Assembly (NCBI GenBank): GCA_009602725.1
Contig: WELB01000248.1
Location: 1 to 24,331, forward strand
DNA from: Spirogloea muscicola
Taxonomy: Eukaryota > Streptophyta > Zygnematophyceae > Spirogloeales > Spirogloeaceae
Length of the DNA stretch: 24,331 nucleotides
Direction: 5' to 3'
The notes under the pieces were generated by a model. It was not told the origin of the DNA. It ran no database searches and saw nothing but the letters and a program-made list of their open reading frames with translations. This document shows positions 1 to 24,125 of the stretch, piece after piece. Numbering within the stretch: position 1 is the stretch's first letter; the number at the start of each line of letters is the position of its first letter. Position numbers and translations under genes: made by a program.

Positions 1-169
1 CGCCGCCGCCGCCGCCACCTCCTCCTCCATTGCCGCTGCGGGCACAGGCGGCGACGGCGCCGGCGCCACAGCCAGCGCCAGTGTGAGCGCGTGCCACGGC
101 CAGCTCGTGATGCAGAGCACACGGAAGCGGCCTCGGCCAGGATGCTGCAGTGGAGGCGCTGCGGCAGAG
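1..169 (+). CDS. possible coding exon, 5'-partial, low-complexity
   Basis: One frame starting at base 2 stays open across the segment and encodes an Ala/Ser/Gly/Thr-rich stretch followed by a basic patch (T-R-K-R-P-R-P-G-C-C). It ends at a good splice donor, GAG|GTGAGC, at 169/170. Such Ala/Gly-rich linkers are common in GC-rich algal proteins. No domain is visible and I do not recognise the gene. A downstream segment with a plausible acceptor (ttgcacag|G, about 498) and an open frame to a stop at 640-642 could be a later exon, but the phases do not join directly. The call rests on frame openness and one donor only. Confidence 0.25.
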
Positions 170-263
170 GTGAGCCGGTTTTACCAGAGTCAACAGATAG
201 TCTGCTTATAGGTTTGCCTCTTCAAAGGGAGAGGGCTCCACTGAACTCTGCTCAAAGTCATAT

Positions 264-420
264 AGTGGGGCTGAGTGAAGTCAATGCTTTGTAGGGTCCC
301 AGGTGGTTAACTCCACTATATTAATCCTGCCTATAGTCACTAGATGCAGCTGAGTGAAGTCACGGCTGTGTAGGCTTGCAGGTGGTTAACTCTGTTACTC
401 AGGTGCCTGCCAGAGCCCAG
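264..420. repeat. two-copy imperfect tandem repeat, 79-bp period
   Basis: The words CTGAGTGAAGTCA and AGGTGGTTAACTC recur at a fixed offset of 79 bases (271 and 350; 301 and 380), so the segment is a diverged tandem duplication. It lies in non-coding DNA, probably an intron or 3' flank of the left-end gene. Confidence 0.7.
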
Positions 421-642
421 AAGAGCAGTTGAAGTGAAATTAAGTTGAAGCTTGGAAGAGTGCTGATTTGCCTGCCATCTGGTATTCTCTTGCACAGGCG
501 GGCAGCGCATGCCACAACACTGGCTGGTAGTCGTCGCAACGTCCCTGCGCCCATCACCATTGACAGAGCATGGCCGGGCGGCCAGGGGTGTATTCAGTTC
601 CGGCAGGCCGTGAAGGTTACACCGCTGCCAGAACTGGAATAG

Positions 643-1758
643 CTGAAGGCCTGTAGTTTATGTTAGCCAATAAGCCCACAGCATACAACTTGCTGGCAAG
701 ACGAACGTCTTGTGGGTCGCCCCCTCTGCAATAGCTGCATCTCCTGTAGCACTTTGCAGAATGAAGTAATTGGAAATATGACGACTCCCCCCGATCAACA
801 TTGACTTATGGCCAGACCTTGCTGCCATGCTTCGGCGGCTTCCCACTGGACTATGATTTTCATGTTTTCTTTCTGACGTGCTGGACGAGCTTATGCACTG
901 ACGCCAACAGGCGGGCACTGCGCTGTGGCCAAAAGGACGGGCCAATGTGGCCCATGTTGTTAATTGCCAATGTGGCACAATCCAATCGTAAGCTAGCAAT
1001 ATGAGTGTTAATGTGCCCCCTCCCCCCCACTAGCCTCGTTCTCATCCTGCTATCTCTGTGTCCCACCACGTTCCCTGTCAATCTTCTCCACGGTGCTTCA
1101 CTGGCCATCTAACAATTACTCCCACTACCTCCCACTTTCAACCTGTCCCCCTTATCCCCCCTTTACACCTCTGCTTACTGCTGCTACCAGCAATCCAGAG
1201 GGCCGCCTTCCTGCCATCAGTCCATGCAACTTTACCACCTGAGCTGAGTTTGACGACGTGCTTGCCAGAATTTCATCCTGAGTCATTTGCCAGCTTAATA
1301 GTTCTCACGCTTGGCTCCCGCCGCCGCCGCCGCCGCCGCCTCCGTGACCAGTGCGGAGGATTGTTCTGGCGGTGCTGGCGGCTTCCGGTCGGGGTTGTAG
1401 ACGCTGTAGTCCCCAAATTCTCGGTGGCCGCTGCAACACAGGCACGCCTTTCTGGGCCGCTTTCAGAGTGCTCCTCCAATAGAGGCTGCTATATGAGCAG
1501 TGACAACTTGTACAAAAGCATTATGAGCTGTGACACCAGACTCGACTATACGTGATGTCGACCTTTTTTCGAGGACTGAAGATATGGAGCACATCACGTG
1601 GGCAGTCTCATCAGCAGCACTCCGCTGTGCGTTGCTCTACCAGAGATCTGTAAGCACATGATCTTGCACTGCTGACAGAGTGGTAAGATACCACGAGAAG
1701 CATGGACCAAGCTGGTGAAATAGGTGGTAAGATGAGCACGAAAGAGTACGAGCTTCAT
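643..1758. other. intergenic or 3'-flanking stretch, no gene seen
   Basis: Short open frames on both strands show no recognisable motif and no consistent exon structure. The stretch includes a (CCG)n run at 1318-1342 and a pyrimidine-rich segment at about 1015-1200. It lies just beyond the stop of the minus-strand RRP6L3-type gene, so part of it is probably that gene's 3' untranslated region. Confidence 0.5.
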
Positions 1759-4700
1759 CTAGCATTGATGTCTATGGCTTTGACCATACCTGTGCTCGAC
1801 GGCCCAGCCGGCGGGCAGGAACTGCGGGCGCACGGCTGCCACGAACGTGCTGCGCCACACCTGGGAGAAGGCTCGCAGTGCACCCTCGCCGCCCGACGCC
1901 AGCAGCACGCCCACGACGCGCCGCCCGTGCTCCGAGTGGCCCAGGGGCGCCTCCGCCTCGCGCCGAGCCGCCGCTTCTGTGCCACTGCTGTACCCAGAGC
2001 CTGGGACTCTCGCCGCCACAGCCGACGGTAGTGGCGTCTGCTGCAGGAGCTCCCTCGCCCCTTGCTTGGCTCCGCAGTTCTCCAACGGCGCTCCACTTCT
2101 GTTCTGTGTAGCACTCTCGCCTTCTTCCTGCAGCTCAAGCTGAAGGCTCTGGCCTCGACTGTCTACGCCACACAGTGATGCCAAGCCGTCCTCTCTAACA
2201 GTGATTCTGCAGTGATCTGCTTGCCCAGCCAGGCGTATGTTGCCACGCTCCGTGGAGCTAGTAAGATCGTCGTCGTCGCCTCCAGCTCCCGTGATCTGTC
2301 CTCCTTCCTGCCTCAGTGCTCCTCCTACCACTCCAGCATGTATTGCGGCTCGGTCGTCCGTCTTGCCAGCCAGCGATGCAGCCCGCCGCAGGCCTCGGAG
2401 CACCTTCGGCCGGACCCCTGCGTGCAGCAACGCCTGCTCCAGGTCGTCTTGACTTACGTCCTCCTTTCCAGTATACATCCTTAGGACCTGGCGGAGTCAA
2501 CCGTCAGGTATACGACCAACTGAGCATGAGAGAAGAGCATTATCAAGATAATACACATACACATACGGGGCCAATTGCAGGTATGACCAAAGACCAGAGA
2601 TGCAGCCAGTTAGCATATACAGTCAAGTTACACCAATTAAGCTCGGTGGAGATCGGCCTGCGTCAATTGCCCCTTGTGACATGAGGTCCAAGTCAAGCGC
2701 TCGTTTGACATGAGACGAGACTTTGAAGGGCGTGCAACATTGACTTGCTACTGTGATGACCGTCCACCCACCTCCTCGAGCTCCTGGAGCCGTGCAGGCG
2801 GCATCGACCGGCCGTGCCGGAGTAGCGCCATGGCTGACCGGCGCAGGAGCGATGGCTCCACGCCAGGCCTCCTTGACTCTGCGCCGCCTGCGCCCTCCGC
2901 CGTTATCTCCTGACTGCCCAACGGGGCGCAGATGCGGGCGGGTATGAGAGGGATGCCAAAGTCCTCGGCCACCTGGCGCTTCTGGCGCTCTGCCGCCTTG
3001 TGGGCTATCTGACAAAGCAGGTGGAACAGCAGGGCATCTTCATAACGAAGACAAAACAGCCATCGGTACTGGTATATGCTTTGGCATGTGAATAAAGCCA
3101 GGGGGTTGCAGCTAAATAGTTACTGAATACTAACATTGATGATGATTATAAGTACACAAATCGAATATTCTAGCACGGAAGCACAGTGCTGAATGCCGAG
3201 TCCCATAGAGCACAAGTGCCAGATCCAGAGCCTGGATACTTATCTCAGTGTCTTAATCGAGAATGTAAGAGCAAATTAGGGTCCAGAAGTCGAGGTCCAA
3301 GTCACCTCATGACAATCGATGCAGAGGAGCACGATGTCGTGGCTCCGGTGGCTCTTGAGGTGCTCGGGGAAGTATTGGCGGTAGCACGACGGCACCAGGC
3401 GGTAGCGCAGGTAGTGCCCAGCCTCGCCGCACCCCACGCATCGGTTGGCCTTGGACTGGATGTAAAACTCGTTCGCCGAGTCCTCTGGCCGCCCCTTGGG
3501 CTCAAACAGCAGCCGCACGCTTGGCGGCTCTTCGTCGAGGTACTCTGCAAGGCTCCTCTGCACGTACCTAAGCAATGACACGCACACTAAACACCTCAAT
3601 TTGGATAACAGGAGCAAATGCCCACGTTGCCAAGCTGATGTCATTTGGTCAGTGACAAACAATGTCTGACACTCTTGACCTTTGGAGAAGCTTTTGTATT
3701 CCCTGGGCACTTCGCTCTGGCTAAGGATGTCAAGGGGCCAAGATATTGTAGGACTGAGGCCTGCACTATGCATGAATTTTGTTGCAGGAGTCACCTTTGT
3801 GCCGAGCTAAACCGTTCCCAGTAAAGATGCCCATGCTGAATGAAATAAAGCCGTACAGGGCCACTTAGAGGTTTTGATATTGGAGGAAACCACCAAGGGG
3901 ATGACCAGCATCTTACCAATCAAGCTTTTTGCGGTCGCAGTAGCAGAGCAGCCGTCCATCGCCCGCGTAGATCCGACAATTTTGGTACACAGGGTTCTTG
4001 CACGAGAACTTGGACACGAACTGCTCCCGCATTTGCACATAGTCCTTGCGGCGCAAGGCCCGGGGGGCACCGTTGGCAACTGCCTTTGCTGCTGATGGCG
4101 TACTCAAACCCGCAATCGAATCCCCATTGAGTGATCTCGGCAGCCCACTGTTTGCAGCCGCCGAGGCTTCCTCACAGCTGTCGCCTGTCTCGCCAGCTGT
4201 ATCCAATGGTGTGTCAAGGGCGAGATGCGCAGCAACCTGCTTGCTCTGAGACTCCTCCCTGCTTCTCTTGGGCTCGCCTCTTGCCATCTGGATGAGCTGC
4301 ACGAGCGAGGACGCGTGCCTCCTCAGCACCAGCGAAGGGGTCTGCTCAGCCCAACTCAGAGCCTCGTCTAAGGGCTTCAGTCCATCATCAACGCAGTGGT
4401 CGTCTGTTCTTGCCGCAGCCAGGTCTGCGGACCGGATTGTCGAGAATAGGTCTGCTTCTGTGGCGGGCGCTGATGCTGCCACCGCCACCAGTGCCGCGTC
4501 CGAGAGAACGTGGCGGCTGCTCTCGTCCTCGGTGCGTGCCTGTGAAAGGCCGTATCTGCTTGTTAATATGGCCATGTTATGGTTAACCAATGCTTTCTGA
4601 AACATCACTCTATTGCTGTGGCTTTCAGGGCAGCTGAACAAGGCAAAGCAAGACCCAGTATCAAATAAGAATTGAGGGTTTATACTGAAACTGTGAAGTA

Positions 4701-7700
4701 TAATGGTTTCAATAAGAATGCGCATGCGACTTATTAGTAGCACCTCCTTACATGCCGAAAGGATGTCAAGACTAAGCAGCCACTCATGATAGACATGGTC
4801 CACTAAGCTTCGAAAGAATCAGGTCATGGGAGACATTCTTGTACATGGGGTTGACAGTGTCTTACGGACAAGGCAATCTCTCCAAGCGCATATCTCCCGC
4901 ACAATGATGGCCAGCCTTTCATCTGCAGCCTGACCAACAGGACAACCAAATGCTCAGCCTTAATCATAACAAACAGCAATCACTGCAAACTTCTCCGAAC
5001 TGTGACGTGCAGACAGGGCTGGTGCTTTGCATGTAGAGAACCCTTAATTCTTCACAAATACTTTACTTGCATCTGGCATTCATAGAGCTTATTACTGAGC
5101 ATCTCAGACCGAATTGCACAAAAGGAGGAAAGTCGGGGGCAGGTCAGTATTACAGGCTGGATCCACTTGACATTAATGTAACCACGATGTAACCTTGCAA
5201 TGAGCTAGGATGGGCAAATGCTCACCATTGGCTGGCTGTTGAGCTGCTTGACCTTGTAGCGGGAGAGCAGGGAGGTCGCGACCGTGGCTACCGAGAACTG
5301 CTCCTTCTTGTAGAGGCTCAGGGTGGTCAGATTGGACCTCGCTGCAGCCCTCTCATACAACCTGCATTGACTCTCCCACTCAGACGAGGAAGTCAGAGCA
5401 GAGTCTCGGTTAGTCGTATACTCGCCTCCTATTACCACTAGTTAAGTCTGCTGATTCTATTGAAGGCACTGCTAAGGGGCTCATTGGAATTTGCGGACGT
5501 TTCTTTTGTATCTTTGGGGCTCCCGGCTGACGCATCCCAGCTCCCAACTTGTTCTGCATCGAATCTCATCCCAGGCTTCACCTGCAAATACAGCTTGTAT
5601 TTTCAGGTGAAATTGCTCAGATAGTGCCTGAAGTGCTATGTTCTTCAATTCCCCAAGTTATGCCCTGCAGGGCAGAATGCCAACAAGCGTTTATGCTGCT
5701 GATGACGAACGTCACAAAGACTCCTGTCAAGAAGGCTAGGAGAGAGAGTCGCACTGGCACGTCTCGAGCCCCTATTCAATCGCTGACATTTGGGGTTCAG
5801 GGTCAAGGAGTTCCATCTAGTATCCAGACGTATGAGCTTCAGGATAAAGTCAAGGCATACATTGCAAGAGCTCCAGGGACCAGCGGCACGGAGGAGCTCG
5901 TAGCGTAGCCGCGCCGCAATGTACACGAGGAAGTGGGCGTCAACCCGAGCATACGCCAGCTGGCCGGGCGACAGCGGTCTCCTTGTCCAGTCGGACTTCT
6001 GCAGTGCACAGCCGCAGGCAGTTGAGCTGCATCAGCATTTAAAAAGCTTTTCTACCAGCAGACAGGATCCCTTGACGCCCACAGTGACATCCAGAAGTTC
6101 CAATAGCTGCGAAATGGTTTCAGGCAGGTGATTGAGACCAGGACTGTTGCTCCTTGAAGTATAAAGCCTAGAAATTTCAACAAAAAATCAGGTATTCGTG
6201 ATGCAATTTTGCAGGTGATTGGGAGAGGCCTCTGCCAAGGAGGAGCGTGCCAAAGTTGTGGATGCCAATGGAAAAAGGGCAGTTGTGTTCACATGATCGA
6301 CAATAGTGCAGGTAGCATGAGCTGATGCCATACCTGATAGCGTTTCTCTGTGTTGATGCCACAGTATTGCCGAAGGAGGAATGCTAGGGACCGCTGAGGC
6401 TTTCCCAGCACATCGCATGCCTGCCAAACAACAATTGCAACAAATTGCTTGTTCCTTTCCAAACAAGAAATGCAACAATCAGTGCAACAGGAGTCTCAGG
6501 TTGATCCGAAACGAGCTCGAAAGTTTCCCATAGGAGCAACAAGCAGGTGGCACTGCAGCGTCCATAGACACAAGAGGTATGAGCCTGTTGTTTCTGAGTA
6601 AGTCCTGCAATATGAAGTGAGAGCAATGGCATGTGGGCTTCGCATTGATGGAAGTGGGCCGCTGACCCTGGCAGTGTCAAAGAGGCTGACAACATAGATT
6701 TGGAAGTCACGCTGCAGCCACAGTACGTCATTGTCTGCTCCATGAAATACCTGCAGGCAGCAGAGCACGCCTATGGTCCTCAGCCAATCTCTATGCTAGA
6801 GATGCATAACCAGACAAACCTGCCAACACTGCAGCTCTGAGCTGTGAAGACGTCATGGAGAGACCAGTGCAATCCCAGAACTGCAACTGCAGAATCACGG
6901 TGTTCATATGGAGCACAATGGTGGAGCCCATTGATTCTGGTGCTGTGCTTTGCTTGCGCCCAACACTAGCCAACCGGGACTTCTTTCATGAACTATGAGA
7001 AGTCTAGCAATCATAAATCTGTCCTTTCCATTGGTCCTGATAGGCGCATGGATATGTACTTTGGTGATCATAGGGTCGGCGAAGATGGGCCGGAGGAGGG
7101 GAATGTCGTCATGGAGACGAATTGTGTCTACCAGAAAGTCCCAGCCTGGAATAGAAATCTGCTGATTCAGTGACAAAATGAGTACTACAAGCAATGGTGA
7201 ACACTCCTTGAATGTCATGCATTCTTGGGCAGCTACTAAGGGAGAATATCAAGCGTAGTCACTTCGAAACCACAAGCTCAAGAAGACCATCTAAAGGGCA
7301 CGAAATGAATGACGTAACAAGTGCTCACAGCTCTTGCAGCTTCCAGGATTTGACAACTCATGCTCAAATACTCAAATACTCAAATACTCAAGTACTCAAG
7401 TACTCAAGTACTTAAATGCTCAAATGCTCAAACGCTCAAACGCTCAAATGCTCAAATGCTCAATAATTTCTTTATTGACCTTGAGGAAAACAGATGGCCT
7501 TGGCAGCTGAATTTTGCACCTGGAGGAGGGCGGTGTAGCCGCGGTAGGAGTGGAGAGTGTGCTGCTCGGTGTCGACGCCGATCTCGGGCTGCCGCGCCAG
7601 CAGTACCACGAGGTCCTCGAGCCCACCGCGGTCGGCCACCCACTTGCAGGCGGTGCTGGCCAGCGGCGCCGGCGGCACGCCGCCCGGCGGCTCGGCTGGA

Positions 7701-8705
7701 CTGCAGGATGGCGGGCACGCCAGGACCCGTCGAATTACGTCTTCAAATGGGTGTTGATCTGCTCCACGGTTTGTAGATAGTGAAAAAGAGATATACTCGT
7801 TAGTGGATTGCCTAGCCTGACAGAATGTACTGTATCACGCATCATCCACCAAAGCTGAAAGCTGGCGTTAGAAGCACCTCCACCAGCAATGGCAGCAGTC
7901 CTTATGAGCGTTCTGAACTTCGTTAGATCTGTTTAGTGGTCGCTTTTGGGCTCCTTGTCAGCTTAATAAGTGCTGCAACCAATAGTCTATTTACATCCCC
8001 CCTTAAGTTGGAACCTGGTAACATCCTGCTCACAACGTAAGCGGTGCCTCCAGCAGGCAGCCCGGTCCAGAACGTCCTTGCAGGAAGCGGAGAGTCTAAT
8101 TACAGGGAGCCTCTGCTAACCTAACTCCAATACCTTAAACCCTGGTAACCCACCTCCTCACCTGAGGCGCTACTTGGTCCTCCATCGAGCTTGCGGCCTC
8201 TCCCTGACGGTAGAGCTACGCCGTAGACTCACATGTGCCTAGCCCTTTAAGGGCGAGGCCCACTGTCTGCAGGCTTAGGGTATTAGGGTTTAGGGCTTAC
8301 GGTTAGGGTTTAGGGTTAGACTTGCCCGGAGCCCCGTTAGAGGGCCTCGTGTGCAGGAAGGGACACGAGGTTACTAACGAGCTGCAGCTCTTGCGGCGGG
8401 GGTTCGACTCCGCACCTCCGCCGGCGAGGTGCCGGAATGGCGCGTCGGAGTTGTCGGCTAGCACCATCCGGAAGCAAGGCCTCGCCACCATCGCCGCCGT
8501 CTCCTCCAACGACTCGTCGTCGTTGGTCAGCCACTCTACATCCGCTTCTCCGTCTTCAGAATCACCGTCTCCGCCGCCGTCGCTGCCGTCGCGGCGCCGC
8601 TTGGCCACCGCACCGATGGTGGCCGCGGCAGCGGCGGCGGCGGCGGCCGCGAAGGTCGCCAGGCCCCNCCGCCGCCGCCGCCGCCGCCGCCGCCGCGGCG
8701 GTCAT
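1759..8705 (-). CDS. RRP6L3: RRP6-like 3 (RRP6L3/EXD2-type) 3'-5' exoribonuclease, 12 exons
   Basis: Exons in coding order: 8705-8416, 7758-7520, 7158-7060, 6750-6667, 6420-6334, 5998-5861, 5378-5226, 4929-4870, 4539-3917, 3567-3306, 3008-2772, 2487-1759. All junctions are phase-compatible and, with N8668 removed, total 3000 bases (about 999 aa). An Ala-rich hydrophobic N-terminus is followed by KRRR. The DEDDy exonuclease domain has D159 and E161 (VDTEQHT), D217 (FHGADNDVLWLQRDF), and Y282 and D286 (YARVDAH). An HRDC-like CAWRD segment, an EXD2-like module with two CxxC pairs (CVGCGE, CIDCHE) and a C-terminal block with FLPAGW follow. The domain order matches plant RRP6L3, which acts in 3'-5' RNA degradation; Arabidopsis RRP6L3 is reported to be cytoplasmic. 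All five catalytic residues are present. Least certain are exon 1, the start of exon 2, the acceptor at 5378 (ctgag), the donor at 4870 (GTCCGT), and the last codons, where CACAG|GTATGG could instead splice onward. Confidence 0.88.
7361..7464. repeat. 8-bp minisatellite, 13 units (TACTCAAA-like)
   Basis: Thirteen consecutive 8-base units alternate among TGCTCAAA, TACTCAAA, TACTCAAG and CGCTCAAA, with similar units adjacent to each other. The array sits in the intron between exons 7758-7520 and 7158-7060 of the RRP6L3-type gene. Confidence 0.9.
8117..8151 (-). repeat. degenerate telomere-like CCCTAAA-strand motifs
   Basis: The segment contains TAACCTAAC, CCTTAAACCC and GGTAACCC, each close to the C-rich strand of plant-type TTTAGGG telomeric repeats. 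It faces the G-rich array at 8275-8319 about 120 bp away, inside intron 1 of the RRP6L3-type gene. Confidence 0.4.
8275..8319 (+). repeat. interstitial telomere-like TTTAGGG repeats
   Basis: About six units matching TTAGGG or TTTAGGG occur in 45 bases, with degenerate spacers such as GCTTACGG. TTTAGGG is the common telomere unit of green algae and land plants. The array is inside intron 1 of the RRP6L3-type gene, so it is interstitial and not a chromosome end. Confidence 0.75.
8416..8705 (-). other. first coding exon of the RRP6L3-type gene, frame broken at N8668
   Basis: An ATG at 8705-8703 opens an alanine run (GCG codons). After the ambiguous base at 8668 this frame continues as an unlikely Arg-rich sequence. 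Dropping that one base moves the reading to GLATFAAAA..., then TIGAVAKRRRDGS, then an acidic stretch and ADNSDAPFRHLAGG. The exon then ends at G|GTGCGG in phase 1, exactly what the next exon (AT|C...HPFEDVIRRVL) needs. A hydrophobic N-terminal segment followed by basic residues also occurs in Arabidopsis RRP6L3 as I recall it. The assignment to this gene rests on phase, position and composition, not on conserved catalytic motifs. Confidence 0.6.
8669..8700. repeat. (CCG)n trinucleotide run next to an ambiguous base
   Basis: A run of about ten CCG units ends at the only N in the window (8668). On the minus strand it encodes the alanine run at the start of the RRP6L3-type protein. GC-only repeats of this kind are prone to sequencing and consensus errors. 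Confidence 0.9.
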
Positions 8706-10025
8706 GCCAAGCTCAACTGCTGCTCGCCCTAATTTTGCCACCGGACGACCTAAATTGCAGACCATGGGCAAACCACCACCACTTTAATCCCCAAAATTTT
8801 TCATAGTGTCGAGATTCCTGTAATCGCGGCTGTTGGAGACGAGTCATATTATAGTTGTGTGGATGCTTGCATGAGCTAATTCGAGCAGAGTTTGGCATCA
8901 AGCAACGCCTGAGCTTCTTCAATCATCGATTACCATAAATTAAACAAAGGTTGCTCGATTGCTGCCATCGTGCTTGCCCTTCTTGCTTTTATTCAACATG
9001 CTTTTATTCAACATGCAGCGCCCCCCCCCTTGGGCCAAACGTCAAAGCGTGTTGTACTCCTGTGTGAAGGGAATAAAAGCGTGATAAGTGACCAACTCTT
9101 AACAACGATAACAGTCAGAGCTCGAGGCCACTGGTTGATGGACAGTGTTTCGTAGCGTCGTAAACAAGGCCATAAGAGGAAGAGCCGTTCAGTGAACAGA
9201 TCAGAAGCGCATTGCTTCCGGTGGCTTCACCAAGGGTAAGGAAGTGCTGCATTGACTTTGGCGGATTCTTTTGATGAGCCTGCTTGACTGTGAATCATCA
9301 GATAGTACTTGAACAGACTTTAATATCCAGAACTGCCGGAGTGCCAGACGGGTCACGAGTGGCTGGCCTAAGGACATGACCTGGCAGCCGACTTAGCAGG
9401 ACACGGCTGCTTTATGTAGCTGCATCGTGATGTCACCAACAGGGTGCCAGGTGTAGGAATGAGTTGGAGGACATGATCAGTACTGACAGAATTTTACCCC
9501 ACCAAAGAAAGAATACAATCTGAAGTAATGAATTTGCATGCTAGTGTAATTCTGCAGCAGGCCTTCTTTCTTACAGTGACCCGCAAATAGTAGTTGAATG
9601 CACGTTTCATCTGCACGTCTTTCTGGTGACGCTCACAAAGCACGTTACCATATAGTAACTAGCTATCTCAGGTATCACTGTGTGAGAGATCGCACGAATT
9701 TTCCAGGTTTGAGATGAAATGTAACATATCAGATTTGTGAAGGATTCAATCTACCTTATACCTTTTGACATCATTATCATCAACATTACGAGTGAACATA
9801 GCATATTGAGGGTATAGATTTGTGATATTGTGGATTGTGGCGCTTACTAAGGGACAACACAACAGTAATGGGACAAATGAAGAGTTCGCCGACGCATTCT
9901 TTGCAAATGTGACGGGTCATTGGCCTGTTGCCAGGCCTGGCTAAGGCACCGCCAGAATACATAAGGCACATCTGCACCTATTAGGAACCCGATCAGAATC
10001 CTAAGTCATGGGCACTGAACTAGGT
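8706..10025. other. intergenic stretch, no gene seen
   Basis: It separates two minus-strand genes and should hold the promoter of the RRP6L3-type gene at the left end and the 3' untranslated region of the transferrin gene at the right end. Open frames are short and motif-free. A 15-base unit CTTTTATTCAACATG is directly duplicated at about 8986-9016. No RNA gene was recognised. Confidence 0.55.
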
Positions 10026-12810
10026 TCAGATAAGCAGATGAGCAGCGAGCAAAAGAGTACAGGAGACAACTGCAATGGCCATGCTCGCAGTGGTGACAAC
10101 CGCAGAGCTGGGAGGGGCGGCTGTGACAGGCGTGGAGTCTAGCTTCTTGACGTTGGTGATAGCGTCGTAAAGCGGGCCAATGTAAGTGATGGCACTGGTG
10201 CCATTGGGAACGCGCTCCAAGCCCAAGGCTTCTGAGTCGAACACGTATCCCATGGTGTTCTTCCCAGACCAGAAGAGCGCCACGGCGCGAGTGTCGGTGT
10301 TGAACTTAACCATTGTTGCCAGGAACTCGTTGATTTCGTCCTCAGCAGCGGTCGGAGACACCATGAGGGCGTGCGCCACCGTGGTTCCAAAGTTGCAGGT
10401 GGCATAGTCGGTGACATCAGCACAGCCACCCTGGTAATAAAAAGCGACAGCAATCAAACATGGCATGTTAGCAATTCATGAGTGTTTGCAAGAACTTTTC
10501 AAGGACACCTCAACAATTGGTCTAGGAGGCAGTCAATGATCGGCAGTCTTAAGCTCAAGCAAGACGTATATCAAGGCTGATTGCAGAGTTAACTCTTGTG
10601 GCTGCGTTGGCTGAGTCTGCACATGGGGTGTAGGCACATTTCTCACCGCAGGGCAGACAAGCTTGTAGTTGTCAGCAGTCTCGAGGTTTTTCCAGCTGAC
10701 GTCAACCAGGGGCCCGCCCAGGGAGTAGTCGATGGCTGTTGTGTGCTTGTTGAATGTCACATATTGGCTTCCACCCTCCACCATGCACCGGAACGATCCT
10801 TCATAATTGTAGTACTGAAAATGAACAAGGAAAGTACAAGCACATCAGCATCACATGTTTGATGGCGGGTCTCAAGTAAACTGAGAAGTGAATGTCAAGC
10901 TGCTACAGAATGGATTCTTGCTCAGGGGCAGATAGGAGATCGAGAGACTCATAGGCAGCTTGCTTACAGTGTCTGTATTGTCACAGCCACTTTTGACAGC
11001 ACAGCCGGAGCAGATTTGGCCATCCCCATCATCATCATCAGAATCCTCTGAGGGTGCGCATGTTGTAGAAAAGAAAGCCTCCACCGTTTGGATGTCAACC
11101 TCCTCACTGCCATTGCTGCTCAAGGCGTCCCAAGTTTTTTATGAAGTGACACTCAGTACAATATTTGCAACCTCAGCCGCTCACTACAAAATTTCAGGTC
11201 ACTATATTTGGAAGTCCTGCAAGTCTCTTGAATTGCATCTCAAATACTTTGACATTCATATGCACAACACTGAGGCACAAACAAGCCAGTGAGTAGAAGG
11301 TAAAGGTGAGTACTTGTTGACAATTGGCATGATTGGGGGACTGCCACTGGTCATGTAACTGACTGGCAGGTACCAGCCTTCATCGTCGTGGTAATAAGTG
11401 TGGCAGGAGTGATAGCCCTTGAGATCTGCCAGAGTCATACCCGTCCTGTGAAGGCACCCAGCAGCAATCACAACTGAATCAGGCAAAGTTGACTGGGGCC
11501 TGTGCTCATGCTGATTCAAACGATGGCGGCACCACTGACTTCCTACTGAGGCAGCGGCGACAGAGGGCGCCAATCTAGCAAGCTCCTTGACAACGTTCTT
11601 TTGGCAGTGAAGACCGCATGATGCAAGAGCGCTTGGAACCTTCAAGTGGTCAAGTAAAAGGTTCCTTGATGGCAGTCGGCCTATCCTGCCAGGGAACTAA
11701 GCTCAACATACTTGTGCTTGGGACACAACAATAAAAAGAAAGGACACAGGGTTGCCTTACTTGCAATCGGATGCATGAACAACAGCGACCGCATAGTTCA
11801 GCACGCCGTTGCCTGGCAGTGTTTCCTTCAGAAGGGGGTACAGGCCATAGTCCTCGTACGCGTCAAAAATAGCACCAGCGTCCAGAAGAACGTACTCAGC
11901 TTCACCTTTGCCAACTTTCTCAATGCAGTCATCATCGTCATCGCCCTGGACGCTGCACATTGTTCACAGGTATGCATGAGGATAAAGAGGATAAGGAGGC
12001 AACACTCAAAGCCAAGGTGAGTACGTTCTTCTGGGGTGGTTGCATCCAGGTATGCACACTAGCTCATATCTTGCTAGTTGCACAAGCACCCATCGGCATA
12101 GTGTCGCTTTAGCGATGGAAGCTACGGCATATTGGCAGATAGGCCCGTATGCTTGACTGTGCTAAGGTACAAGATGACAGAGGAGCGGGCCCCACCAGCT
12201 CCAGGTGTGGTCATCCTCGGCGTCAAGCGACTGAAGGATCGCGGTCATGTTCAGGCAGGTGCCAAGCTCCTCCTTCAAGACGCAGAACCGACGGTCTGCG
12301 CAGCGAAATCGCGCCTACAGCAGCTGTCAGCTCGTTCAAGAAATGACCGACTACTGGAGCTGCATTGGAGTCGGCCTACAACACCCAGAAGAATGACAAT
12401 GCAACCAGCTCGATTCATCACCAATCTGAAAAGCGGCTGTGAAGCTGCGACAATGCAGTGACAGTGGCGTCTTCAAGACACCTAAAGAAAGCTGCAACCT
12501 CTCCACCGCACAGGCTTACACCAGCAGCTCAGCGAGCTGGCAATCTGGAGTCACTCTTGGACGTGAAAGCCAGGCAGGTGCATGCAGAGGGTGTTCACGC
12601 GTACAATAGCGGAGCCACAGGAGAGGCACACAGGGCGCTCTTACTGATCCAGAGTATCAGCAATGTAAGGCAGATGGGCTCACGCTCGTTGGTGTTGGGG
12701 GCGTCGTTGTCGTCGTCGCCGTCGGAGTCGGCGCGGGCGCCGGGAGCGGCGGCCAGAAGGACGGCGGCGAGGACCAGGAGGCCCGAGACGGCGTGCCGGA
12801 GTCGGGCCAT
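10026..12810 (-). CDS. single-lobe transferrin-like protein with signal peptide and GPI-like tail, 7 exons
   Basis: Exons in coding order: 12810-12684, 12295-12196, 11952-11761, 11445-11314, 11115-10968, 10814-10647, 10430-10026. They total 1272 bases (423 aa plus stop), all phase-compatible with GT-AG introns. Residues 1-27 form a signal peptide ending ARA. One transferrin lobe follows: CVQ...DDCIEKV, LLDAG (D100), NYAVAVV (Y129), ADLKGYHSCHT (T156), EAFFSTTCAP, YYNYEGSFRC (Y237), HTTAI, KLVCPA, and VAHALMV (H309). The four iron ligands Asp, Tyr, Tyr and His of transferrins are therefore visible. The anion-binding Arg (four residues after the Thr) is Asp160. After a Pro/Ser/Thr linker the protein ends in a hydrophobic tail typical of a GPI-anchor signal or membrane anchor. 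The likely role is iron or other metal binding at the cell surface, as for salt-induced Dunaliella transferrins, but with one lobe. An open in-frame extension reaches an ATG at 13020; the later ATG was chosen because it starts the signal peptide. Confidence 0.9.
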
Positions 12811-13952
12811 GACGGCGGCGCGGCGGCGGCTGCTGCTGGCCCGGGGAGACGGCTCTGTTGGTGTGCTTTGGAGCGGCGGGGAGACGGCGGGAGGGAGGTC
12901 TTCTGATGGGCACTGGGGGGGTCCGAATGGTAGGAACTGTGGCCCCGACGGGGCTTTATGATACCGTCTACTGATGGTGGGACGAGTGGCGGGGCCCCCA
13001 CTGAGTGGCCGCGCCGCCATGATGGCCGGCCCTCACCGCGGGCGCGCGCCGCCACGCCGGCAGCACACGCCCGGCACGTGCCGCTCCGAGATAGGCGCCG
13101 GGAAAAGCGCCGGGATAGGCTCACAGTCCACCTCCATTCGCCGGGGGGAGATCGGGGGGGGGTTCCCCGTCGGGGTACGCGGCATCCCGCGGCGCGAGGG
13201 GGCGCTCAAAATCGGAATAGATTTAGAATCTGACACCAAGATACTGGAATGCAGGGGCAACTATCACGAGTACCGGGAAAAGGGATGGCCGGCGTTCGAG
13301 CTTCCCGGTCTGCACGTGGACTACTTGACCTGGCCCTGTTTCTAAATCTGCCACACCAATTGAAGGCCTAGGTTCCCGACTCATGCAGCAGCTGCCGCCC
13401 TCTCGAAGCTAGGACCTCTTCCGAAGGCCATACAGCAACTTTAGGAATCAAGATTCGGCCACGCTGCACATCACACGCTGCGAAGCCCGAGCTTTAAAGC
13501 TTGTGCACGAGGAAAATTTCGTGTGTACAAGGTAGAGGAGGCTGGCCGCTCGCTGCGCCTGCTCACCTAGCGTAGAGACGCTGCTCAAGGCTGCTGAATT
13601 ACTGCTGAATTACCTGGAGTACTGTCCGCAGTTCTTGAGGGCCCTTCGGGTGCAACTCGGCGATGCTATTGGGGGTCCTCTCACCAATACCTCTCACAAA
13701 TACATCAGTAACCAGTCTTTTGAGCTTGTCTCATGATTACATGCTGCAAGTGTGTAGATCTACCATCTGATACAGCGAGGAGTAATAGAGCTGAAGCATA
13801 GTCCTTCGCTCTGCTATAATTTGCAGTCTCAAGTACGGAGTCAAGCTGCAGACAGCTGAACAATATCGCAGGACAGGTCTTTGCACAATTTGCAGCAAAA
13901 AGCAAGCTCCTCTCCTCTCTAACAACCACCACCTTGAAGCTCTATTACACTT
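12811..13952. other. upstream region of the transferrin gene and intergenic DNA
   Basis: It is GC-rich to about 13205 and AT-richer beyond. It should contain the transferrin 5' untranslated region and promoter, but no TATA box or known iron-response element was recognised. A GC-rich segment near 13090-13115 has two copies of GCGCCGGGA in an E2F-like context. A plus-strand open frame ends at 13345 without recognisable motifs. Nothing else is supported. Confidence 0.45.
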
Positions 13953-13963
13953 CGACGTTACAG

Positions 13964-14043
13964 AGAGAAGGGCTCGCCCATTGAGGATAGGGGCTGGAAA
14001 AAGCCAGCCCAGAAAAGAATGAACAAAGGACGAGAAGGGGCCA
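13964..14043 (-). mobile_element. 80-bp retroposed tail flanked by 11-bp direct repeats
   Basis: Read on the minus strand, the insert runs from TGGCCCCTTCTCGTCC through the hairpin GGGCTGGC...CCAGCCCC to GGGCGAGCCCTTCTCT. It is bounded by perfect copies of CGACGTTACAG at 13953-13963 and 14044-14054, which fits a target-site duplication. The body matches the 3'-end repeat found many times further right, so this is an extremely 5'-truncated retroelement copy or a short non-autonomous retroposon. Confidence 0.8.
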
Positions 14044-14054
14044 CGACGTTACAG

Positions 14055-14580
14055 GTCTGTTGTGTCTACAAGACACCCAATTCCATCGCATCACGCCCAA
14101 GAGCCTCTGAAAATCTTCAAGCTACATGCAAAACATGGCGGTACTTGCACTGCTCACTCAGACACAATTATCTGTTACCTATGTGATTATAACCACTTGC
14201 AAGTCATGGACAACAAATGGCTAGACTATCACCACAATGTATTGTCTGCTTACAGGATCTAAGGACGTTTGGCAAGCTGTGACGCCAAAAGTAAGTGTGC
14301 AATGTGGATCGGCAACGGTTAGTTAGACATCACTGCTATCAAGTGAGCGACCACTTTAGTGGATCTGGTCGGTTCAGACGTGAAGGGTAATGAGTCCTCT
14401 CTAAGAGACTTCCTCGATGGCGACCTGGCGTCTAGCAGTTCACAATTTGTGCGACTCGATCGGGCTTGCAATCATGGCCATGCGCCCTCTCAAAAAGAAG
14501 AAACAGTTCCTCGCGGACTCGAAGGCCGCGCCAGTAGCCGGCGGCTGCAATGTAGCCGACGGCTGCAATAGTGTCCCGCA
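14055..14580. other. no gene recognised
   Basis: Open frames are short and none carries a recognisable motif. The sequence leads into a retroelement tail copy at 14581. A short imperfect duplication with GCCGGCGGCTGCAATGTAGC-type words lies near 14534-14570. Confidence 0.45.
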
Positions 14581-15450: not shown

Positions 15451-18216
15451 ATGCTCGGGCGTGCACCCCCCCAGGGCCACGGCCAAGGCCGTCAGCTGCT
15501 CCTGGACCGCATCTACCTCTTTCAGTGTGGGCGATGGGAGGAGCTTCTGGCGCGGCATGACGCTGCCGTGGCTGCAGCCACAGCCGGCCGCCGCACTTCG
15601 CAGACAGGGCCATCGCCTGACAGGGCGGCCAGTGTCCGCCGCGCTCTCCGGTATGGCCATGCCGGGGAGCTCTCGAGAGCAGTCCAGGCACTGGATGATT
15701 CGGCGTTGGCGCCGGCGACTGAGGACACGCGGCAAGCCCTCTCGTCCCTCCACCCCCCGGCACGCTCTCCCTTGCCTTCGTGGTTGGCTTCCTACGTCCC
15801 GCCGGAGGAGGTGGCCCTGGATGCGGCAGCCCTCCGCAAGGCCCTGCAGAGCAGCCGGCGCGCAGCTGCAGGTGGCCCCTCACGCATGGTTACGGAGCAT
15901 TTGAGAGAGCTCTTTCTCGAGGGGGACGAGGCGGACTTTCGGGTGCTGCACCAGGTGTGCCAACACATGGCCCGGGATCACGTCCCTGCCAGCATCCGCA
16001 GTGTGCTCTGTGCCAGTACCCTGCTGGCCCTCAGCAAGGTCAACGGCGGCGTCCGCCCCATTGCCATCGGCGAGGTCCTGTACCGCCTGGTGGGTAGGGC
16101 ACTTTGGCAACAGCACGCCGATGCGGCCCAGACACACCTGGCGCCACACCAGTACGGCGCAGGCCTGCGGAGCGGCGGCGAGGCGGTTGTCCACGGGGTG
16201 CGGGCTTCCCTCGACTTGCACCCCGAGTGGGTCGTGCTGGCGGTGGACGTCCGCAATGCCTTTAACTGCGTCGACCGCGTCACAGTCGCCGAGGAGCTCC
16301 GTGCGGCCTTCCCCACCCTGCTGCCGTTCTTTCGGCTGGGCTACGGCCAGCCCAGTGATCTCCTATGGCGGCATGGAGCCGGCGGGGTGGAGGTCCTTCA
16401 GTCTTCCACGGGCACGCGTCAGGGTGACCCGCTGGCGGGGTTTTTCTACGCGCTGGCCCACGACCGCGCCCTGAAGGCCACGGCAGCTGCTCACCCGGGC
16501 GTCCTCATGCCGACGTATGCCGACGACACCTCCCTGGTCGGGCAACCAGACGAGGTCTTGGCTGCCTTCACCACGCTCGAGGAGCAGCTGAAGGAGATCG
16601 GCCTGGACATCCGAGCGTCGAAGTGCAGCGCCTGGTCCCCCCAAGGGTTGCCAGCCCTCCTCCGCCTTCCCTCCGGCTGTCAGACACCTGCCGGGGGCCT
16701 CACCCTCCTCGGGGTTCCACTGGGCTCACCTGCCTTCGTGGACGAGCAGCTGCGCAGCAAGCTGCAGGAGCACCTCCAGCCGGCGGCCCGCCTCCCTGAG
16801 CTGCACGATATGCAGCTGGGGCTTGCCATGCTGACGCGCAGCATAGCCCACCGTCCCCTGTACCTGGCTCGAGCCCTCCCCCCCTCCCCGGCGACGCAGG
16901 CCGCCTATGCAACTTTCGATGCAGGTATCCTGGCCTGCACAGCGGCCCTGGTCCAACACCCGGCCTTCCTGGAGACGCCGGCTGCTGTGCACCAGGCCTC
17001 CCTGCCTGTGAGCCGAGGGGGTCTGGGCTGCCGCCCGCTGGCTCGTGCCTGCCGGGCAGCACACCTGGGGAGTTGGGCGCAGGTTGCGGCTTCGGTGGCT
17101 CAGCGTTTCATCCGGCATGGGGGTCGCCTCCTGGAGCAGGCGGCCGCGGACGTGGAGACTGGCACGCTGCCTTTCCAGACGGCTCTCCGCTCAGCCCGGG
17201 ATGAGCTGCTTGCGGATCATCCCGCCCTGGTGCCACGGGCCGTCCCGTTCGCTCACCTCGCGCGCACGGCCGACCTGCGGGCCCAAGCTCGCTGCATGGC
17301 GGAGGTAGATGCGGCGTCTTTCTCCACGGCGCTGGGGCTTTTGCCTCCAGCCGACCTCCGGGGGCGCGCGCGACTGCTCTCGGCGTCCTCACCAGGGGCG
17401 GCTGCTTGGCTGTCGGCTCTGCCGATCCACGACGCGCTCCGGATGCCGGACGCCGCATTCCGAACGGCGGTGCACCGCCTCCTCGGCCTCCACCCACCAT
17501 GCCTAGGTGGAGTACAACAGTGCGAGTGCGGCGAGCGCAGCCCGGACGCGGCGTCACTGGCAGCTCACATGCTCCGATGCGCACGGGGAGGGGAGCGGAC
17601 CGGCACACACGACCTGCTCCGGAACGCGATGTTTGGCATATTTGTCGAAGCCGGTTACACTGTGGCGCTGGAGAACTCCAGCATCATGCCTCTGACTGCT
17701 GGGGCGGACGGCCGCCTCCACACCCGGCGCGCCGATCTCGTCGCTAGCGCGCTCGGCGGGGGGCCTCGGCTCATTGCCGACGTCGTCACAACGGACTCCT
17801 TGGATTCCAGGAGCGCAACACGCTCGGCGGAGGAGGCGGGCTACGCCGTCCGCCAAGCGGCCGCCGCAAAGGAGCGCAAGTACTCAGATCACCCGGTAGG
17901 CGACGAGTTTATCCCACTCGCCGTCGACGTACACGGCGCCTTTGGCGCCAAATGGCTGGACCTCCTTCACCGCCTTGCGCGGCGAGCAGCGGCCCGCCGC
18001 GACGGGCAGCAAGGCGAGCAGCCTGGCTTCCATGTCGCCGGGTCCCTCGCCCAAGTTTACCGGATGCGCCTGGCCGTCTCTTTGCAGCGGTCCCTAGCTT
18101 TTGCGGTCCACTTGCGCTCAGGCCGCGCTCTGGCAGCGGCCTCCGGCTTCCGTCAGGGCGACGTCTTTCCGCCTGCTAGCTACTCAGATTTGCATCTACT
18201 GACGAGAGGTTACTGA
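15451..18216 (+). CDS. non-LTR retrotransposon protein: reverse transcriptase plus R2-type restriction-like endonuclease
   Basis: The 921-residue open frame carries reverse transcriptase motifs in order: a GPSRMVTEHL block (about 146), KVNGGVRPIAIGEVLYRLVG (about 191), motif A VLAVDVRNAFN with catalytic D266, motif B TGTRQGDPLAG (about 320), and motif C YADDT with Y356, D358 and D359. A gag-knuckle-like C691-x-C693...H706-xxx-C710 is followed by R760-A-D762...D777 and AAAKERKY. This is the pattern of the PD-(D/E)xK endonuclease of R2/CRE/NeSL-type elements, not the apurinic type. Such proteins nick target DNA and copy their RNA at the nick. No N-terminal zinc-finger or Myb region is present, an in-frame stop directly precedes the ATG, and the left edge abuts a repeat fragment, so the copy looks 5'-truncated and the ATG fortuitous. 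The frame has no stops or frameshifts, suggesting recent insertion. Confidence 0.9.
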   Translation: MLGRAPPQGHGQGRQLLLDRIYLFQCGRWEELLARHDAAVAAATAGRRTSQTGPSPDRAASVRRALRYGHAGELSRAVQALDDSALAPATEDTRQALSSLHPPARSPLPSWLASYVPPEEVALDAAALRKALQSSRRAAAGGPSRMVTEHLRELFLEGDEADFRVLHQVCQHMARDHVPASIRSVLCASTLLALSKVNGGVRPIAIGEVLYRLVGRALWQQHADAAQTHLAPHQYGAGLRSGGEAVVHGVRASLDLHPEWVVLAVDVRNAFNCVDRVTVAEELRAAFPTLLPFFRLGYGQPSDLLWRHGAGGVEVLQSSTGTRQGDPLAGFFYALAHDRALKATAAAHPGVLMPTYADDTSLVGQPDEVLAAFTTLEEQLKEIGLDIRASKCSAWSPQGLPALLRLPSGCQTPAGGLTLLGVPLGSPAFVDEQLRSKLQEHLQPAARLPELHDMQLGLAMLTRSIAHRPLYLARALPPSPATQAAYATFDAGILACTAALVQHPAFLETPAAVHQASLPVSRGGLGCRPLARACRAAHLGSWAQVAASVAQRFIRHGGRLLEQAAADVETGTLPFQTALRSARDELLADHPALVPRAVPFAHLARTADLRAQARCMAEVDAASFSTALGLLPPADLRGRARLLSASSPGAAAWLSALPIHDALRMPDAAFRTAVHRLLGLHPPCLGGVQQCECGERSPDAASLAAHMLRCARGGERTGTHDLLRNAMFGIFVEAGYTVALENSSIMPLTAGADGRLHTRRADLVASALGGGPRLIADVVTTDSLDSRSATRSAEEAGYAVRQAAAAKERKYSDHPVGDEFIPLAVDVHGAFGAKWLDLLHRLARRAAARRDGQQGEQPGFHVAGSLAQVYRMRLAVSLQRSLAFAVHLRSGRALAAASGFRQGDVFPPASYSDLHLLTRGY

Positions 18217-20876: not shown

Positions 20877-21450
<574 letters not shown>

Positions 21451-21737
21451 ATTCACGGTATTCATATCGCCCTAGTGCAATAACAAAATATTATCCTAGT
21501 CGTCAGGAATCTTTTGCCTCCTTAACTTGGACAAGTAAGTTGGCTATACGAGCAACTTCACAACTCCAGCAAAAGGACAACAATGCACAGCCACAGAGCA
21601 GAAAGTTTTAAGAACTCTAACGAAGGGACATAGATGCAAGTCAAAGAGGAGCAGCTAGCAAACTGCAGTTCTAGTATGGTTGCCGAATTCATATTCAACC
21701 ACTACAGTGGTGTACAGTACAGTAGCGCAGCGAGTAC

Positions 21738-22609
21738 CTGGACCTTCTTCCGACAGAGGACAGCAAGTGACCGTGCAGCCGCAGCCGATGCCTGCAGTGC
21801 CGCCAGGAATGTCTGAGCAGGGCTTGGGCTTGCAGTCCACATTGGAGAAGGTCTCAGTTGCCAGCAGCCTTTCTCGGCGTAGCCCTTCAAAGAGCTCCTG
21901 GGTGTCATTGCACAGTCTCCGACGATGAGGGCGTTTGGCTGGAAGCAACTCGTGTGGCCAGCTACATCTCCGCAGGGACGTCGGGAATCTGCTTGGATAG
22001 TAACCAGTGTCAATATGAGCAGAGACACCCTCTTTTAGGTGATTCATAGCCTTGCAGGTCAGTCGAACCGGGGAAGCTCCCTCCATAGGCTCAAGCGTGA
22101 CGTGACAACTAGTGTGCTGGCCAGCAGCCACGTGGTCGCCACCCTCGCAATTCTTGCACCACCATCTGGGGCGACTCGTAGTGTGACTCAGTGCCTCATG
22201 TATGTCACATGTTGCAATACCTGCTCACACTACAATAATGGTCAAGTTCCCCTTCAATAGTGACATCTTCTCCGCTTGACACTGCTGTGACGCTCACCTT
22301 ACAGAGGCCATGTGAGACAAGAGTGCAACGCTGGAGCAGAGTTGCTGACGTCACAGACTTAGAAGTGTTGCATGCGCACCTGGCTCTGGCGGTGCAGCCA
22401 CTGTGATGAACAAAGATGCAGTCCTGGCTGTCCAGCGTCAGGCCCGGCGCGACCTCCTTGGCGTAGAATAGCTCCCCACTGTCATCGCTGAGAACGGCGT
22501 ACTGCATCTCGTGCTTGGCAGCTCGGACGCAAGCAGGAGCCACTGCAGCAACGAGAAGCGCGACAAGCTGCACCCACCGCTTGCTACCGACGCGCTGCCC
22601 GACTGTCAT
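21738..22609 (-). CDS. secreted cysteine-rich protein of unknown family, at least 3 exons, 3' end not found
   Basis: Exons in coding order: 22609-22380, 22165-22029, 21938-21738. Junctions are phase-compatible (AG|A, G|CC, then phase 1 at G|GTACTC). The 189 residues begin with a signal peptide (VQLVALLVAAVAPACVRAA). The mature part has DCIFVHHSGC, WWCKNCEGGDH, TSCHVTLEP, VRLTCK, LCNDTQELFEGL, VDCKPKPCSD and GIGCGCTVTCC. The many cysteines point to a disulfide-rich extracellular or cell-wall protein. I do not recognise the family. No continuing exon was found between 21737 and the microsatellite at 21450, so the gene may extend past the repeat or be truncated. An alternative exon 1 ending at 22298 is possible but breaks phase with exon 2. 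A retroelement tail lies about 150 bp upstream of the ATG. Confidence 0.65.
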
Positions 22610-22756
22610 CTTTGCGCCAATCGCTAGCAAGCACCAGCTGCGGCAGCTGAGCAGAGAGCAGGAAGAACTTGCGAGCCCGGACCCTAACCTGGCTCGCGAA
22701 TGCGGCGGGGCGACAGAATGTACTGTGTCGGAGAAGGAGCTCTTCCACACGGATGC

Positions 22757-22805
22757 GATGGCTGTGAAAGGCCAGCCCAATCACCTGGACAAGGACAGAG
22801 GGGCC
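22757..22805 (-). repeat. retroelement tail fragment upstream of the cysteine-rich gene
   Basis: On the minus strand it reads GGCCCCTCTGTCCTTGTCC, AGGTGATTGGGCTGGCC and TTTCACAGCC, a copy of the common tail. It lies in the presumed promoter or 5' untranslated region of the gene starting at 22609. Confidence 0.65.
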
Positions 22806-22864
22806 ACTGAGCGGCGGCCGAGCACAAAGGCACGCACGTCTACTGATGGAGGCCCGGTTGCCGC

Positions 22865-23640
22865 TTGATGCTCGCTGCACAGCGGGGTCCAGGGCCTGTC
22901 GAGGGGCTCCAAAGCGCAGATGGGGCTGCTCGCCCTCCCTCTCTCTTAGCCAAAAGGCTTCGCTTGTGTAGCACTTTCCTTTGCACCATGTTTCGCCCAA
23001 AGAGTGTACTGACTCAGCTTGGCTTCCATTTCAGTGCATGCGCACCGCGCGGTATCTCTTTTCCCCTCCACCATCCCGCCTGCTACTGCTGCTGCCCAAC
23101 TCCTCCTCTAGCAGCCCCAGCAGGACAGGTCGACAAGGCCCCAAGTGGCAATTCCGCCCTCTTCCCTCCCCCGTCCCTCCACTCCTGCCACTGCTGCTGC
23201 TTCAGTCGTCTAGCAGCCGGCCCTCTCCCCCCCCCCCTTTCCCACCCCCCCCTCCATTGGCACTTCCGGCCCTCTTTCGCCCCCCCTCCATTCCTCCCGC
23301 CACTGCTGCTGCCCCACTCCTCTGGCAGTTAATCTGGCCGCACTTGCTCTTTGGCAACTCCAGAAGCTGCTAGATGCAAGCTGCTACGTAATTATATGTG
23401 CTTGCCTTGTACTTGGCCATATTGGCCTTCGATTGTTTCAAATACACGAAATGTTTTGTTTTCGCAGCCCCTACCTTCTACACAAGGCCTACACTCCCGC
23501 TGGGTTGGCTTGAAGTGGCCACGCTTTCAGTTCATGCGCACCGCGCGCGCCTCTTTCCCTTCTCTCCGCTGGCTGGCAGAGGGTGCCTCCTCGTCTTATA
23601 CACGACTTTTTCTGCAACCCCGCCCTCACTAGGCCGGAGA
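22865..23640. other. pyrimidine-rich low-complexity region, no gene
   Basis: The plus strand is dominated by C and T with long C runs at 23227-23250. Three spaced, similar blocks with CTGCTGCTGC followed by a TCTAGCAG or TCTGGCAG word occur near 23081, 23185 and 23296, suggesting a diverged tandem repeat of about 105-110 bp. GTGCATGCGCACCGCGCG near 23034 recurs as TTCATGCGCACCGCGCG near 23531. Open frames here follow from composition. Confidence 0.6.
23325..23348 (+). repeat. short retroelement tail end
   Basis: The word CAGTTAATCTGGCCGCACTT followed by GCT matches the terminal part of the tail at 18302-18324 with one difference. Confidence 0.65.
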
Positions 23641-23999
23641 GAAGGATCGCTATCGCTTGGGCGCCAGCACACGGGGGTTCATAATGGCAAGCCAATACTC
23701 GAGATGCCGTGCCCGTGCGGGTAGTGGCTTGAGGGTTGGTTTCCGCGGCCGCTCAGCCGTAGATGCCGGGCAGCCAGCCGGGCGGCAGAGTCCTGCGGGC
23801 TCCGCGGCCACCCTGCTACCCACCAGCCCGGAAAAGCATCCCCCAATGCTGCCTTCTGATGCCGCTCGTTTTTGAATCGGCAGCCGCATCCTTCTATACC
23901 GCCACTGCTCCCACTCTCTCTCCCTCCCCTCGCCCTCCTTCCCATCCCACTCCCTGCCTTGCTTGCTCGCTTGCTCGCTCGCTGTCTCTCTATCTGAGT

Positions 24000-24125
24000 T
24001 TCTCTCAGCATCGTCTCGTATCTAGTTGTGTATTTTTTTTTTCGGCACCTATTTTGGCTTTTGGATATTGTCAGTTCTTTTTGTGCTGGCTTTGCCAGCC
24101 CTCTTCTCTCTGCGCGAGCAATTTC
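24000..24125 (+). repeat. retroelement tail copy ending at a TC run
   Basis: It contains GTCGTCTCGTATCTAGTTGT, TTCGGCACC, GGATATTGTCAGTTC, GTGCTGGCTTTGCCAGCCC and GCGCGAGCAATTTCAT, the same order of blocks as in the copy at 20620-20733. A (TC)n run starts four bases after the expected 3' terminus. Confidence 0.75.

Follow-up and report, generated by a model that had tools for sequence, protein, structure and literature searches.

The window analysed here, meaning the whole stretch of 24,331 nucleotides of contig WELB01000248.1 (C248 below) of Spirogloea muscicola, encodes on its minus strand a single transferrin lobe that retains the complete set of iron ligands and carries an aspartate, Asp160, where the carbonate-binding arginine of transferrins is expected. 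Its function is best read, with about an even chance of being right, as that of a ferric-binding lobe at the cell surface whose carbonate site would have become weaker or given way to the Asp carboxylate.

The 423-residue protein results from the splicing of seven minus-strand exons (12810-10026), all of whose borders are GT-AG; the seven-exon gene model of the initial annotation was thereby recovered, with splice sites shared by all three homeologous copies in the genome. The features of the gene, given with reference to human transferrin and to the closest paralog on contig C3, are the following:

Exon 1, 12684..12810, minus strand: ATG, signal peptide and onset of an acidic N-terminal stretch, with GT donor
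Signal peptide, residues 1-27, 12730..12810, minus strand: putative cleavage between ARA and D, placed by eye
Exon 2, 12196..12295, minus strand: defined by its splice borders
Exon 3, 11761..11952, minus strand: contains Asp100 and Tyr129
Asp100 codon, 11880..11882, minus strand: aligned with human transferrin Asp63
Tyr129 codon, 11793..11795, minus strand: aligned with Tyr95; Phe in paralog C3
Exon 4, 11314..11445, minus strand: contains the entire anion-site motif
Anion-site motif T156-YYHDDE-GW, 11373..11399, minus strand: TGYHRASGW in paralog C3, TGLGRSAGW in human transferrin
Asp160 codon, 11385..11387, minus strand: at the position of carbonate-binding Arg124; GAC in all three homeologs
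Exon 5, 10968..11115, minus strand: defined by its splice borders
Exon 6, 10647..10814, minus strand: contains Tyr237 and Lys256
Tyr237 codon, 10803..10805, minus strand: aligned with Tyr188
Exon 7, 10026..10430, minus strand: contains His309, the C-terminal signal and the stop codon
His309 codon, 10371..10373, minus strand: aligned with His249
GPI-type attachment signal, about residues 397-423, 10029..10109, minus strand: SSA, short spacer and hydrophobic end, without cytosolic residues

The borders of exon 1 are identical in the three homeologs, and the exon layout is common to paralog C3. Exon 5 has a possible alternative in-frame AG acceptor 9 bases downstream, the use of which would give three residues fewer, away from the sites discussed here. 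The putative signal peptide is based on hydropathy, the most hydrophobic 15-residue stretches of the protein falling inside residues 6-25. By inspection of hydropathy and small residues, the C-terminal end after SSA is hydrophobic and uncharged, and similar tails are present in paralogs C7 and C3, in line with the GPI-type tail proposed initially. Signal peptide and tail together fit a putative GPI-anchored surface protein.

The initial annotation had further proposed one complete transferrin lobe, to be checked by a Pfam search, and the match to Transferrin (PF00405) is clear (E 8e-45, 153.9 bits where the curated cut-off is 20.3), covering profile positions 4-326 of 328 and hence the whole lobe. 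Among solved structures the best match is human melanotransferrin (E 2.3e-60), both lobes of which are matched by the window lobe. No second lobe was found among the matches listed on the contig: in searches that score the best candidates only, the two to PF00405 and the six to the lobe itself all lie within 10128-12293. The lobe is bracketed by the signal peptide and the stop codon. When the lobe is aligned with human transferrin by phmmer, D100, Y129, T156, D160, Y237 and H309 stand at D63, Y95, T120, R124, Y188 and H249 (human residues in mature numbering). The Asp-Tyr-Tyr-His iron tetrad is therefore complete at the four positions originally assigned to it, and the anion Thr (Thr156) is kept too. 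Lys256 is aligned with Lys206 and Asp354 with Lys296, Lys206 and Lys296 being the lysine pair that forms the pH trigger in human transferrin. Cysteines 47, 56, 76, 85, 154, 243, 287 and 301 correspond, by alignment only, to human transferrin cysteines. Two further cysteines, C139 (exon 3) and C292 (exon 7), are without counterpart in the aligned human lobe and are also present in paralogs C7, C3 and C145; a disulphide restricted to these algal lobes may link them.

At the anion site, Asp160 stands instead of the Arg, so the lobe is not classed as canonical carbonate-binding. That an Asp is found four residues after Thr156, followed by Gly-Trp, had been read from the window sequence at the outset, and both the alignment and all three homeologs agree. 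The motif is interior to exon 4 and distant from the splice borders. Arg occupies this site in the lobes of serum transferrin and ovotransferrin and in the N-lobe of melanotransferrin (four alignments examined). Compared directly, the site reads SCHTGYHRASGW in C3 and SCHTYYHDDEGW in the window lobe, Arg-Ala-Ser in the former facing the acidic run D160-D161-E162 in the latter, and the Arg codon CGA and the Asp codon GAC differ in all three bases. Ten of the 43 residues of exon 4 differ between the two genes, four of them within the six-residue loop 157-162, where Gly, Arg, Ala and Ser of C3 correspond to Tyr, Asp, Asp and Glu of the window lobe. This clustering is suggestive only, with a permutation P of 0.018 if the loop is preset and of 0.35 if any six-residue window is allowed. 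The window lobe also contains poly-Asp stretches and has a net charge of -36, compared with -26 for C3 and -19 for C7, and the loop may owe its acidity to a general drift. Because Arg is present in C3 and in animal transferrin lobes, the change from Arg to Asp is probably derived, and we infer that it came later than the split of the window type and C3. Its direction leans mainly on C3 and the animals; the site is loose in the family of this genome, since three more distant gene types are without Arg at the exact position.

Three syntenic copies of the gene, on the window contig C248 and on C288 and C215, have identical splice sites, and most of window 1-14550 aligns to both other contigs in pieces that are 68-90% identical (pieces of at least 120 bases, about 30 kb of each contig). 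The homeologs are 93-98% identical in exons and 84-95% in introns, the latter differing by 5-16%. Pairwise comparison by two methods gives dN of 0.011-0.016, dS of 0.14-0.20 and dN/dS of 0.06-0.10, and the codons for residues 153-164 are identical in all three. The gene is real and under selection against protein change. That mis-splicing, a sequencing error or a decaying copy yielded the Asp is highly improbable, considering that the motif lies within an exon and is identical on three separate contigs, and that the low dN/dS comes with conserved splice sites and an exon layout common to C3 at 68% identity.

The surroundings of the gene were also inspected. No iron-related neighbours came out of a Pfam scan that covered 22 distinct open stretches of the window, with E limits for listing of 0.01 or 0.1, and that was apt to miss small exons of intron-split genes. 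The matches were to reverse transcriptase, to 3'-5' exonuclease (one over the cut-off and one below), to HRDC just below the cut-off and, sub-threshold, to CcmD (E 0.07). At 3916-7834 on the minus strand, 3'-5' exonuclease (PF01612) and sub-threshold HRDC pieces follow each other in the order seen in an RRP6-like exosome nuclease, and this neighbour does not look iron-related. The reverse transcriptase domain (PF00078) lies in a 921-codon open frame at 15451-18216 on the plus strand, where the alignment to both homeologous contigs breaks, and the element was probably inserted in the window copy only. Further along, both homeologous contigs carry about 21448-23065 in the opposite orientation, and 21001-22000 and 23001-24000 show strong GC/AT skews and long overlapping open frames, six of which were scanned and gave no Pfam match.

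In the 153 Mb of genome searched (471 contigs), the transferrin family comprises at least five gene types on at least 11 contigs, and the anion motif was read on 10 of 11, all except C39, the partner of C7. The window type (C248, C288, C215) combines the iron ligands D,Y,Y,H with T and D at the anion site. Paralog C3 (1018605-1021447) is likewise one lobe with a GPI-type tail, shares all seven exons and their phases with the window gene and is 68% identical to the window protein (280 of 413 aligned residues). Its iron ligands are D,F,Y,H, with Phe for the first Tyr, and its anion site has T and the canonical R; it was found in one copy only, the window type in three. C7, with partner C39, has N,Y,P,K at the iron positions and T and Q at the anion site, with an Arg one place earlier. 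In C147 and C33, where the gene is incomplete, the anion Thr is P and the Arg position T, again with an Arg one place earlier, and both iron Tyr are lost (one contig read, alignment borders uncertain). In C145, C61 and C284, Ala and Ser replace the anion Thr and Arg respectively, as they also do in the melanotransferrin C-lobe, and both Tyr and the His are lost (one contig read, alignment borders uncertain). The C145 gene (4300-6800) shows, by eye, a putative C-terminal transmembrane segment with a short charged tail, and a very weak match just upstream of it (E about 1-2) possibly belongs to the end of a second lobe. None of the four other gene types keeps the full iron tetrad, two or more ligands being lost in C7, C147 and C145, and none of the lobes read in the genome has the full iron and anion ligand sets together. 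The transferrin family in this genome may be leaving iron behind.

In the reading that we prefer, a secreted, membrane-anchored one-lobe transferrin would act at the cell surface and there capture ferric iron, or a comparable hard trivalent ion, in a metal cleft formed by Asp100, Tyr129, Tyr237 and His309. With the anion site altered, Thr156 being kept and Arg replaced by Asp160 in an acidic run, carbonate would be bound weakly or not at all, and iron would be held less tightly and released faster; as an alternative step, Asp160 itself might stand in for carbonate. Surface location, iron binding and altered carbonate use are what we infer from the sequence. According to the accessible part of the melanotransferrin study, iron binding was impaired when either the anion Thr or the anion Arg was changed and abolished when both were (PMC7804310), and the window lobe keeps one of these two residues, Thr156. 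In human transferrin, Arg124Lys is described, in the portion of the paper available, as releasing iron much more readily (PMC3125230). Because of the melanotransferrin, cod and human data, one would expect iron to be bound more loosely by the window lobe, or with a smaller contribution from carbonate. The lactoferrin mutant R121E reportedly, to go by the title of the study, has destabilised iron binding; it is the only close engineered parallel known to us, and by analogy the iron affinity of the window lobe may be too low to matter.

A stricter version, in which Asp160 supplies the carboxylate that normally comes from bound carbonate and the protein would be a carbonate-free transferrin, seems to us rather improbable. 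By formal charges, carbonate (2-) and Arg (1+) would equal one Asp (1-), so that the net charge of the site would be kept without an outside anion, and the paralogs would have split the classical site between them, the window type with all iron ligands and no Arg, C3 with the Arg and one Tyr fewer. Precedents exist in bacterial ferric-binding proteins that share the fold and do without an outside anion. A rival view, of ordinary surface iron uptake in which another basic residue, or Thr156 and the amino end of a helix alone, hold the carbonate and the loss of Arg is tolerated, is unlikely. Cod offers support for it, since the Arg is replaced by Lys in the Tf1 N-lobe and by Thr in the Tf2 C-lobe while DYYH is kept in both lobes of both proteins (PMC3125230, in the text accessible), and so does the melanotransferrin N-lobe structure, where the Arg points away and Thr alone touches carbonate, as described in the available part of the paper for a low-pH crystal with partial iron (PMC7804310). 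An Asp, however, is a charge reversal and not a neutral or conservative replacement, and the next two residues are acidic where C3 has Ala and Ser.

It is also somewhat doubtful that the lobe no longer binds iron and serves as a surface binding or structural protein for another ligand, such as calcium or another metal, by way of its acidic surface. Its strong acidity and poly-Asp stretches would suit such a role, which also accords with the loss of iron ligands in C7, C147 and C145 (two or more) and in C3 (one) of the same genome, and a one-lobed fish otolith matrix protein without iron ligands is a precedent in the accessible part of PMC3125230. Yet the four iron ligands and the Thr are kept in all three copies, where the loss of some would be expected, as in the paralogs, and a role without iron would leave the conservation of the tetrad without a ready explanation.

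Among known transferrins of the green lineage, the Dunaliella salina transferrin-like proteins (TTf and relatives) are, by the titles of the studies, plasma-membrane proteins linked to iron uptake. They are multi-lobed and their host is a chlorophyte, which sets them apart from the window protein. The Lambert 2005 survey is said to list Lys for the anion Arg in one green algal (Dunaliella) lobe. The comparison with Dunaliella made initially probably reaches across a deep divide, between a streptophyte (Zygnematophyceae) genome and a chlorophyte. GRAS genes are abundant in the present genome, often in threes (92 exon matches, and none in any of 14 control genomes), and light-harvesting genes gave 68 exon matches. 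The GRAS genes and the triplicated blocks both point to a streptophyte such as Spirogloea muscicola. One light-harvesting exon scores best with chains that we take to be from moss and spruce, above those that we take to be from Chlamydomonas, Chlorella and Dunaliella; the 620-residue chain LHCI-2 scored higher for that exon, over two stretches. The RuBisCO large subunit had no match in the genome's contigs, which therefore seem to include none from the plastid. Phytotransferrin ISIP2a of diatoms is a member of a distant group that Pfam Transferrin does not include. Like the role proposed here, it serves algal surface ferric uptake but is carbonate-dependent (PMC7972479, in the part available).

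Melanotransferrin, an animal protein that is GPI-anchored or secreted, resembles the window lobe as the best solved-structure match, in having a GPI-anchored form and in a C-lobe without the anion Arg; unlike the window protein, it has two lobes, and its C-lobe has also lost the Thr and the Asp ligand and does not bind iron (accessible text of PMC7804310). Of the anion pair and the iron tetrad, the window lobe has lost the Arg only. Two one-lobe transferrins are described in the available part of PMC3125230: ascidian nicaTf, which is from an animal and is proposed to traffic vanadium with carbonate as the anion, and the fish otolith matrix protein, whose iron ligands, unlike those of the window lobe, are not conserved. 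In the accessible parts of the same literature, the anion Arg is lost elsewhere in favour of Lys, Thr or Ser (PMC3125230, PMC7804310).

Transferrins with one lobe, with a GPI anchor or without the anion arginine are thus each already known separately, and the description of the protein as unusual does not hold for these traits one by one; it does hold for an acidic replacement combined with a complete iron tetrad, which is new in that it is unmatched in the accessible portions of the open-access literature examined. That literature yielded no paper with both 'transferrin' and 'Spirogloea'. Relatives were confirmed among neither 4 pattern-matching stretches in viral contigs nor 83 in a genome-contig collection, both weak negatives given patterns built from three near-identical sequences and one paralog, and none were found in a phage collection.

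Taken as a whole, a strongly selected lobe that keeps all its iron ligands and reverses the charge at the carbonate site amounts to a natural experiment on the need for carbonate, and it is worth a binding assay because paralog C3 supplies a ready-made control. With Spirogloea as host, Pfam-type transferrins are also placed, in several forms, in the algae that are sister to land plants.
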